64,000 nucleotides of DNA. Origin: Leisingera aquaemixtae (GTDB taxonomy: Bacteria > Pseudomonadota > Alphaproteobacteria > Rhodobacterales > Rhodobacteraceae). Below, one piece after another: positions 17,911 to 20,315 of the stretch (within the stretch, counting starts at the first letter, position 1; each line of letters begins with the position of its first letter). The stretch is from NCBI RefSeq assembly GCF_019801145.1, contig NZ_JAHVJQ010000001.1, positions 496,001 to 560,000 on the forward strand, in the 5' to 3' direction. The translations under genes were made by a program, and so were the position numbers. The notes under the pieces are model-generated. The model had not been told where the DNA came from, ran no database searches, and saw only the letters and a program-made list of their open reading frames with translations.

Positions 17911-18576
17911 TCAGCCCTGGATCTTGTCTGCCCGCAGCGGACAGGACAGGTAGACGCCGAACTCCTTGCCCACATCGCAGCTGACCCGGGCATGCACCTT
18001 GCCCTGGCGGTCGAGAAACCGCTGGCTGTTCTCCACCGGGAAGATCCCTTCATGCCAGATGTTCGGGTGGATATAGAGACCCTTGGTGCCGTCGCACCAG
18101 AAAGCCACCACCTTTTCCGGCTTCAGGTCATCCCCCGGCAGCGCTGCCGGAATGATGAAGGGCTTGTTGTCCAGCGGATAGAACAGTTGGCCGCCGTCGG
18201 GGTGATAGTTCATGTGCCACAGCAGCACCTGATCCCGCGGGGCAGTCTGCTGTGCCACCTGCGCCTGCTGCGGGTCTGTCGACCAGCCCAGCACATAGTT
18301 GCCGTTGACCGCTTCGTTCTCGCCGTAAAGCACATCGCCGCGCCAGTCGCCGCGGAAGGTGCCCTCGACCCAACCAGCCTCATCACCTGTGCCTTCGTCA
18401 ATCGGGCGCCAGCCCTGGGTGGGCCATTGCACGATTTCGATTTCGAAATTTTCGGGATCGTCAACAAGGCAGCCATAGCCCTTGACGCTTTCTTCGGTCG
18501 CCCGGATCAGCGGCACCTCGTGCCAGGGCAGAGAGGGCTTGGAGCTGGCTGCAAAGATGTACTCGGGCGCGCTCAT
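17911..18576 (-). CDS. AllA-like (ureidoglycolate lyase family) cupin in the tmp operon
   Basis: 221 residues. The C-terminal two thirds match the AllA cupin layout: LLWHMNYHPDGGQLFYPLDN, then FIIPAALPGD, VVAFWCDGTKGLYIHPNIWHEGIFPV and a final CDVGKEFGVYLSC. AllA proteins are about 160 residues, so this one has an N-terminal extension. AllA releases urea from ureidoglycolate, but no allantoin or urea gene is nearby. Its ATG overlaps the tmpB stop by 4 bases, so it is the third gene of the tmpA-tmpB operon. A role in phosphonate or glycine-betaine metabolism is inferred from that coupling. Annotation as ureidoglycolate lyase by family alone would probably mislead. Confidence 0.75.
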   Translation of the reverse strand: MSAPEYIFAASSKPSLPWHEVPLIRATEESVKGYGCLVDDPENFEIEIVQWPTQGWRPIDEGTGDEAGWVEGTFRGDWRGDVLYGENEAVNGNYVLGWSTDPQQAQVAQQTAPRDQVLLWHMNYHPDGGQLFYPLDNKPFIIPAALPGDDLKPEKVVAFWCDGTKGLYIHPNIWHEGIFPVENSQRFLDRQGKVHARVSCDVGKEFGVYLSCPLRADKIQG

Positions 18577-19178
18577 CTTGCGGCACCTCCATCGCCCATG
18601 TGCTTGTCGACCATCCGCTGCACCATCGGCGCAAAGTGCCAGTAGTCTGGTGTTTCCATGTCGTCGCGTTTGCCAGCCTCGTCCAGATAACGCACCGCGA
18701 TGATCTGCCTGAGGTTCGGGTTCTTCTCGAATTCGGCCACTTCCTCAGCGGCCATCGGACCGCCCTGCAGGTTCAGCGAATGGATGGAAGCCTCTGACAA
18801 ACGGTTGAAATACTCCGGCTTGGTGGCGCAGAGATAACGCTTGGCCGCCACATGATAGCGCACGCAGTCGGTGATAACCGAGGGAAAGAACTGCTCCAGA
18901 ACTTCAGCCCCGGCTTCTTCGTGGAACCGGTCCTCTGTGTCGTCCATGGAAAACGTTCCGAACTCGCTGGTGAAATGGCCGATGTCGTGGAGCAGCGCCC
19001 CGACGATGATCTCTTCCGGCTGACCGTTCTGCTCGGCAATGGTGGCGCCTTGCAGCATATGCTCGGCCATGGTGACCGGCTCGCCCAGGTATTCCTCGTC
19101 GCCGCGGCGGTCAAAGATGCCGCCGATGAACTCGACGATGTTGTCTCGGCTCAGCTTGCTGATATCCGGCTTGCTCAT
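18573..19178 (-). CDS. tmpB: HD-domain mixed-valent diiron oxygenase TmpB (glycine-betaine forming)
   Basis: 201 residues. TmpB oxidatively cleaves the C-P bond of (R)-1-hydroxy-2-trimethylaminoethylphosphonate to glycine betaine and phosphate. All features of the PhnZ/TmpB oxygenase group are present: Tyr30 and Glu33 in EEYLGEPVT, His40, the HDIGH motif (His64, Asp65, His68), His86, His109, Lys113 and Asp166. The spacing follows PhnZ almost exactly (constant offset of 6, then 5). These residues distinguish it from HD phosphohydrolases, the usual automatic annotation. It lies 3 bases after tmpA and overlaps the cupin gene by 4. The identification rests on this residue set plus the tmpA neighbour. 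Confidence 0.88.
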   Translation of the reverse strand: MSKPDISKLSRDNIVEFIGGIFDRRGDEEYLGEPVTMAEHMLQGATIAEQNGQPEEIIVGALLHDIGHFTSEFGTFSMDDTEDRFHEEAGAEVLEQFFPSVITDCVRYHVAAKRYLCATKPEYFNRLSEASIHSLNLQGGPMAAEEVAEFEKNPNLRQIIAVRYLDEAGKRDDMETPDYWHFAPMVQRMVDKHMGDGGAAR

Positions 19179-19181
19179 GTC

Positions 19182-20315
19182 TCAGCCCTCCGTTTGCGCG
19201 TTCAGCACGTTCAGGGTCGACAGCAGCCCGTCCTTGTCGGCGTAACAGCCCTGCAGCCAGCGGGAGCCGGAACCGGAATAGCCGTTGCGGGCGTGCAGCA
19301 CGCGGGTGTTGTCGACAACAAAGCTTTCCCCGGGTTCCAGTTTGAAGGCCACGCCCATCTCCGGATCGTCAATGAATTCGCCCAGGCGGCGGTAGGCAGC
19401 GTAATAGGCCTCCATTTTCTCAAACGGAATGTCCACAAACGGCGCAGAGGAACGGTTGTTGAAGCGGATGCCGATCATCTCTCCATCGGGCGACAGTTCG
19501 ATCATCGGGCGGCGGGAACGCAGATGCACCCCGTCGGAGCCCTTGTACTCGAACCGGGCCGGATACCCCGCGAGCAGTGCAAAACCTTCTGGATCTTCAT
19601 CGCGCAGGCGCTCTGCCGCGCGGAAGCCGTCCACCACGATGCTGTCGCCGCCTTCGGCCGAGTTTTCCAGGCAGTACAGGATCTGCAAGCTGGGCACCGG
19701 GTCGCGGTAGGGGTTGTCGGTATGCGCCTGAAGCCCCAGGCCGGTATAGGCGAGGTTGGTCGGGTTCACCTCGGTGCGAACCTCGAAATACTTGCCGTAA
19801 TTGGTTTCGCGCACGAAACCGAACATCCCGGCGCATTCGATCAAAGCGCCTTCCTCAACCGGGCCGTTCACCAGCTTGGCAAAGCCGAGGCGGGCAATCG
19901 CGTCCAGCCACTCACGCTTGACCTTCGGGTCGGATTGTACCTCATTCCAGTCAAAAGCAGGCGCCGGCTGGCTGCTGTTCCAGGTTTCAATTCCCGGTGC
20001 TATGCGGCCGAATTCAGTTGACTGATCAATATCATAGGCGTTGGACTTCAACCATGCGCCCGGATAGGTGGCGGTCTTGCCCTCGGGTGCAAAGGTCACG
20101 GTCAGGGAACCGTCTTCCACCAGCGCGGTGCTGATCCGGGTATCAGCGGGAATGTCGCCGATGGTGATCAGCCGCTGGCCATTGCCGGGGGCGCGGGTTT
20201 CCGGGTCCAGCGCATTGTCGCGCAGCCAGATCGCATGGAAGCGGGTCTCGCTGCCGTCTTCGAATGTCAGGGTCAGAAAGCTGCCGGAAGCGTCAGCGGT
20301 TACGGAACGGGGCAT
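19182..20315 (-). CDS. tmpA: 2-trimethylaminoethylphosphonate dioxygenase TmpA (2-oxoglutarate/Fe(II))
   Basis: 377 residues with the two-domain layout of gamma-butyrobetaine hydroxylases: an N-terminal domain (WLRDN, about 30-34) and a TauD-like jelly roll with facial triad His198, Asp200 ([10 protein letters not shown]) and His341, and 2-oxoglutarate-binding Arg352. In gamma-butyrobetaine hydroxylase three Cys after WLRDN bind zinc; here that segment reads [10 protein letters not shown], with none. TmpA hydroxylates 2-trimethylaminoethylphosphonate at C1 for TmpB. First gene of the operon, with GGAGAG before its ATG, and divergent from a LysR gene. Carnitine or betaine-like substrates cannot be excluded, but tmpB next door favours TmpA. 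Confidence 0.87.

Follow-up and report, generated by a model that had tools for sequence, protein, structure and literature searches.

An AllA-like cupin gene that overlaps tmpB in Leisingera aquaemixtae and may serve methylated-phosphonate catabolism

The tmpA/tmpB locus of Leisingera caerulea is described in a review (PMC10574752) as a two-gene operon. The stretch analyzed in this study (hereafter, the window) comprises 64,000 nucleotides of Leisingera aquaemixtae (contig NZ_JAHVJQ010000001.1, positions 496,001 to 560,000 of the forward strand) and carries the same two genes, yet, unlike that two-gene description, it also holds a third gene that overlaps tmpB and encodes a cupin related to ureidoglycolate lyase (AllA), an arrangement shared with 64 named loci. 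Two described protein families provide a frame for this cupin. AllA itself (PF04115, EC 4.3.2.3) is a nickel-dependent enzyme releasing urea from ureidoglycolate, as stated in PMC3793230, while the DUF4867 proteins SftX/SqvD are AllA-related cupins encoded in sulfoglycolysis operons, i.e., in a pathway that has no obvious missing step (PMC11968277). Our analysis, based on genomic evidence, suggests that a distinct branch of such cupins is tied to TmpB, the oxygenase that cleaves the C-P bond, in several genera and orders.

The features on which this argument depends are located in the window as follows:

17911 to 18576, minus strand: AllA-like cupin of 221 amino acids, coupled to TmpB and bearing N123-x-H125-P-D-G-G-Q130 and W174-H175-E176 as its signature
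18573 to 18576, minus strand: four-nucleotide overlap of the tmpB stop with the cupin start
18573 to 19178, minus strand: tmpB, (R)-1-hydroxy-2-trimethylaminoethylphosphonate oxygenase, an HD-domain diiron protein of 201 amino acids (NCBIfam NF049941, PDB 6npa)
19182 to 20315, minus strand: tmpA, 2-trimethylaminoethylphosphonate dioxygenase, 377 amino acids (NCBIfam NF049936, PDB 6npb)
17848 to 17912, minus strand: hairpin terminator 3' of the cupin gene, between it and the convergent sufS (fold z -7.66)

An earlier note, made from the letters of this DNA, had described three open reading frames (ORFs) on one strand, separated by a three-nucleotide gap (tmpA-tmpB) and a four-nucleotide overlap (tmpB-cupin) and ended by a shared terminator, which is exactly what the ORF positions and the fold z-score give. 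Its naming of the first two genes is confirmed by the NCBIfam equivalog models, TmpA reaching 600 bits against a cut-off of 400 and TmpB 364 against 300, with 6npb (E 1.4e-243) and 6npa (E 1.6e-126) as the respective nearest solved chains. The terminator is a 17-pair hairpin of -27.4 kcal/mol, equaled by none of 200 shuffles; a simple terminator scan called none at the cupin end, in our opinion because the T run forms part of the stem.

The coupling of the third gene, which the same note had pointed out, recurs widely. Among the best 80 of 343 confirmed loci, to which all counts of named loci refer and which overlap with the genome set described below (e.g., L117/G270 and L130/G165), tmpB is present in the same locus as the cupin in 65, directly upstream of it in 64 and in another order (LysR-cupin-tmpA-tmpB) in one, L125. 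In all 65 loci with tmpB directly upstream (the window and the 64 named ones) the two genes overlap, by four nucleotides in 63 and by one in two, and because the overlap is kept throughout, their coupling is not a matter of chance. The hosts include Rhodobacterales, Hyphomicrobiales metagenome-assembled genomes (MAGs) and the gammaproteobacterium Marinobacterium, the nearest relatives of the window's cupin and tmpAB among the named loci being from Leisingera. Seven TmpB proteins, including that of the window and one only 58% identical (L125), all pass the NCBIfam cut-off.

Co-occurrence was assessed in a family survey of 295 genomes from 294 genera, thus nearly one genome per genus, where the presence of the cupin was defined by a match of at least 148 bits (18 genomes) and was separated by a clean gap from the remaining genomes (at most 36 bits, short matches or none). 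Of these genomes, 39 were called positive for TmpB (E<=1e-30 and at least 57% identity) and 37 for TmpA (E<=1e-100). TmpB accompanies the cupin in 17 of 18 genomes vs. 22 of the 277 cupin-less ones (Fisher p 5e-16, kinship ignored), and when only genomes with an unlinked cupin are considered, in 9 of 10 vs. 22 of 277 (p 6e-9). The association thus holds whether the cupin is linked to tmpB or not. The ten unlinked cases comprise one broken cupin (G036), one ending at a contig edge (G087) and one of the distant type (G086), and both broken cupins, that of G036 and that adjoining tmpAB in G100, were retained in the counts. Interrupted copies were observed at L037:7999-8670 (a second copy, in G089), L040:6576-7285 (G036) and L043:6685-7340 (G100). 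Among the named loci, for 10 of 15 unlinked cupins a TmpB with adjacent tmpA is encoded elsewhere in the genome.

TmpB by itself, more than the TmpA-TmpB pair, appears to be the partner of the cupin, since tmpB-cupin persists in four loci (L097, L098, L106 and L123) whose genomes have no TmpA match at E 1e-20; in L098, a 46-residue remnant of tmpA is left upstream of tmpB-cupin, and G036 combines TmpB and a broken cupin with no TmpA match. These loci would place the work of the cupin at or just before TmpB, not on a by-product of TmpA. Across the 50 loci that have each of the three genes and whose tmpA is less than 80% identical to that of the window, mean identities to the window are 83.0% for the cupin, 82.0% for TmpB and 71.4% for TmpA, the cupin exceeding TmpA in all 50. 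In L106, a carbon-nitrogen hydrolase gene lies directly 5' of tmpB-cupin (L106:6545-7375).

By family and fold, the cupin is a relative of AllA, although not the genome's only or regular protein of the ureidoglycolate-lyase type. It matches Pfam PF04115 with 47.1 bits (gathering cut-off 23), covering residues 121-188 only, and stays below the cut-off of all eight listed NCBIfam ureidoglycolate-lyase models (at best 44 vs. 230 bits). An AlphaFold2 model built from 47 orthologues (mean predicted local distance difference test score 89.7) predicts an AllA-type fold, as Foldseek placed AllA structures on top (2bdr, E 5.9e-10), followed by DUF4867 (9gyz, E 1.7e-4). Judged against the motifs of nine AllA proteins from the same bacterial family (IN..C.R.HD, ERHP.GSQ, WHGVL and NL.E), the cupin retains only HP.G.Q and WH, so that its barrel motif agrees in part with that of AllA (H125, Q130, H175), while IN..C.R.HD and NL.E are missing, the Glu two positions before the His is replaced by N123, and WHG reads WHE. 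The resulting signature, NxHx4Q...WHE as opposed to ExHx4Q...WHG in AllA, is found (as NxHPDGGQ and WHE) also in five relatives 54-60% identical to the cupin, and the putative metal/active-site residues are strongly conserved in the orthologue alignment; metal binding is presumed here. The cupin further differs from AllA in being some 50 residues longer and in its genomic partners. All 18 cupin genomes, including that of the window, encode an AllA-type protein apart from the cupin (59-72% identity to the query AllA); together with the failed AllA cut-offs and motifs this makes the name "ureidoglycolate lyase" misleading, as the earlier note had suspected. Its supporting remark that no allantoin or urea gene lies nearby stands for the ten ORFs run on NCBIfam, between 14.3 and 29.9 kilobases, rather than for the whole window. 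With regard to other cupins, Pfam listed no DUF4867 match at E<=1, the fold match to that family is weak, and its Glu-x-His-x3-Glu...His ligands (a 2His-2Glu site) are not reproduced by the Asn-x-His-x4-Gln...His-Glu motif; dimethylsulfoniopropionate-lyase cupins (DddQ/L/W/K) were absent from the Pfam matches and the 50 Foldseek rows shown, no direct comparison having been made.

Tentatively, and at well under even confidence, we favor the explanation that the cupin is an ancillary metalloenzyme tied to TmpB, acting on a C1-oxidized quaternary phosphonate. One divalent metal would be held in the barrel via H125, Q130 and H175, with N123 and E176 taking the place of AllA residues, and the substrate would be a compound of the acid-CH(OH)- type chelated by this metal site, much as AllA is supposed to chelate ureidoglycolate. 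In cells with tmpAB, this substrate might be a C1-oxidized form of trimethylaminoethylphosphonate that TmpB is unable to use, e.g., the (S)-alcohol or a 1-oxo/hydrate form, which the cupin would either send back into the pathway or dispose of. A precedent for such a role is offered by PbfF, a 2-amino-1-hydroxyethylphosphonate racemase that was found by genomic context and, according to PMC12366243, feeds the "wrong" hydroxyphosphonate to a stereospecific pathway by racemizing the enantiomer on which the enzyme of that pathway cannot act; PbfF, however, is a nicotinamide adenine dinucleotide (NAD)-dependent PF02826 protein rather than a cupin, and its substrate is unmethylated. A more specific form of the explanation, which we consider quite improbable, envisions a new metal-dependent phosphonate enzyme of AllA fold that would bind the phosphonate and the C1-oxygen of 1-hydroxy- or 1-oxo-trimethylaminoethylphosphonate and either invert C1 without NAD or expel phosphite, in the latter case by an AllA-like retro-addition yielding betaine aldehyde or betaine. 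If true, tmpB-cupin cells lacking TmpA could use hydroxylated phosphonates from the environment. A PF02826 hydroxyacid-dehydrogenase-type gene, of the PbfF family, immediately follows a near-branch cupin in L128 (L128:1565-4870, with an M24 peptidase gene next), in a genome with a Phn-HD protein and no TmpB.

The cupin faces a divergent LysR gene in L036, L042, L125, L137 and L182, with TIGR03339, the LysR model of aminoethylphosphonate catabolism, as the best NCBIfam match (213-269 bits, cut-off 341), and four of the seven cupin-facing LysR proteins from the Paraburkholderia-type genus, those run on NCBIfam, gave the same best model (255-266 bits). Thus, the aminoethylphosphonate type is best in nine of nine cupin-facing regulators put to NCBIfam, all of them under its cut-off; a control LysR (L039) reached 103 bits on TIGR03339 and preferred another model.

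The phylogeny of the cupin (computed without the truncated L041 and the broken G036 and G100 copies) contains a near branch of 45 rows in which adjacent and solo forms are mixed, so that adjacency must have changed seven times or more, five of these changes being forced by well-supported branches. Many solo lineages branch early, with modest support, while most adjacent cupins fall within one large part of the tree, with that of L125 positioned outside the main adjacent group. The gene is likely to have arisen as a stand-alone unit and to have moved behind tmpB afterwards. In the tmpB tree, whose rows were partly picked for cupin presence, the cupin is scattered across mostly poorly supported branches, and therefore no TmpB subtype can be tied to it.

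Several observations weigh against the explanation by an ancillary enzyme of phosphonate metabolism. The tmpAB pathway has no missing step, and 22 of 39 TmpB genomes, including one of the same genus as the window, do without the cupin, which is therefore not essential. Five of the 15 unlinked named loci belong to genomes without a true TmpB, three with no match (L126, L130 and L131) and two with only a Phn-HD relative (L103, where tmpA is also present, and L128), and all four tmpA-less genomes discussed above are MAGs that may be incomplete. The phosphonate-type LysR stands, by tblastn, at a minority of unlinked cupins (1 of 15 named loci, L137; 2 of 11 unlinked family loci, L036 and L042; 7 of 20 Paraburkholderia-type loci), and some cupin neighbors indicate choline or betaine instead. 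Finally, a distant cupin (the 54-60% identical branch) is present in 52 of 144 genomes of the Paraburkholderia-type genus, where TmpB accompanies it in none of the 52; TmpB-like proteins (65%) were found in only two of the 144 genomes, neither with the cupin. The tie to TmpB thus characterizes the near branch, and the finding that the earlier note had named as fatal, a cupin mostly apart from tmpAB, does not apply to the close branch (65 of the best 80 loci adjacent) and does apply to the wider family. Co-occurrence of the distant cupin with a Phn-HD protein is uninformative, since such a protein is present in 139 of the 144 genomes. In 4 of 20 Paraburkholderia-type loci the gene caller had missed the cupin.

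The main rival explanation, which we regard as possible though on the unlikely side, assigns the cupin to quaternary amines: its substrate would be not a phosphonate but a compound common to the phosphonate route and to choline, choline sulfate and betaine, and the link with tmpAB would arise because that route yields glycine betaine or uses a substrate resembling betaine. The TmpB-less Paraburkholderia-type branch would fit this, as does a distant member located between LysR and a choline sulfatase (627 bits, cut-off 433) in L182. Moreover, solo cupins in L101, L104 and L111 follow a same-strand gene by approximately 150-160 nucleotides, which in L101 is DAO-GcvT demethylase-like with a GbdR-like AraC regulator upstream (124 bits, cut-off 480; L101:5346-8669); by shared gene clusters, the DAO-GcvT assignment extends to both other loci and the GbdR-like one to L111. 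However, choline-sulfatase-like genes (E<=1e-120) occur in 214 of the 295 family genomes and are too common to explain the observed pattern, the nine cupin-facing LysR proteins match best the aminoethylphosphonate rather than the choline type, and several annotated neighbors of solo cupins are housekeeping genes. A solo cupin between purL-like and bolA-glutaredoxin-like genes, a recurrent housekeeping site, was observed in several genera (L035, L038, L039, L132, L134 and L138, by shared gene clusters; Pfam was run on L039), and this context, as well as those beside ptsP-like and lysC-like genes, was rejected as a source of partners, since they look like insertion places.

The remaining alternatives appear less probable. 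The cupin could be a helper of TmpB (supplying metal or iron, stabilizing it as a partner or sensing a ligand) and not a pathway enzyme, which we consider improbable: the overlap in 65 of 65 loci (63 by four nucleotides), the four loci in which the cupin stays with TmpB while TmpA gives no match, and the completeness of the pathway would suit such a role, whereas a free-standing function is suggested by the unlinked copies, some of which have a LysR to themselves, and by a TmpB-less branch, the putative metal/active-site residues are strongly conserved, and TmpB is reportedly active without the cupin. Similarly doubtful is mere hitch-hiking or shared ancestry, i.e., a cupin that works elsewhere and is inherited along with tmpAB. 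The concentration of adjacent cupins in one large part of the tree, the many TmpB genomes lacking the gene and co-occurrence statistics that ignore phylogeny, a weakness also for the favored explanation, all speak for it; nevertheless, the association is retained by unlinked copies in a sample of nearly one genome per genus, and L125 has another gene order and a separate position in the tree. A true ureidoglycolate lyase was rejected as highly unlikely, for despite the PF04115 match above its gathering cut-off and AllA structures as best fold matches, it conflicts with the NCBIfam cut-offs, the absent motifs and the separate AllA-type protein. Overall, the accessory role in methylated-phosphonate catabolism proposed in the earlier note fits the co-occurrence with TmpB, while TmpB seems a better partner than the tmpAB pair to which that note had assigned it.

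On its other side, the window's operon is flanked by a regulatory gene:

20415 to 21284, plus strand: LysR regulator divergent from tmpA, GcvA/choline-sulfate-regulator-like

Its best NCBIfam matches, GcvA and the choline-sulfate regulator, are both below cut-off. Relatives of this LysR adjoin tmpAB in many loci, both with the cupin (e.g., L044-L048) and without it (L049-L053 and L055-L057), and are absent from some tmpAB loci at the threshold used. The window's junction of sufS with tmpB is found without the cupin in L049 (G238) and L050 (G193), one of them from the window's own genus, providing a natural gain/loss pair. Among other neighbors, a Type I phosphodiesterase gene lies directly 3' of the cupin in Thalassovita autumnalis (L118:8673-9500), and an enolase-superfamily gene with a small gene (ArsR/MarR-like in L031) is located 3' of either tmpB or the cupin in L058:8282-9956 and L031:8325-10185.

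In the open-access literature, we found no paper that connects tmpAB with a cupin of AllA type; the original publication on TmpA/TmpB, from 2019 and outside that literature, may mention the gene. In practical terms, these cupins may come to be called "ureidoglycolate lyase" in databases, as their Pfam match invites. If the reaction of the cupin is found, it would add an extra step to the bacterial use of methylated phosphonates and would be the second instance, DUF4867 in sulfoglycolysis being the first, of cupins related to AllA within seemingly "complete" pathways.
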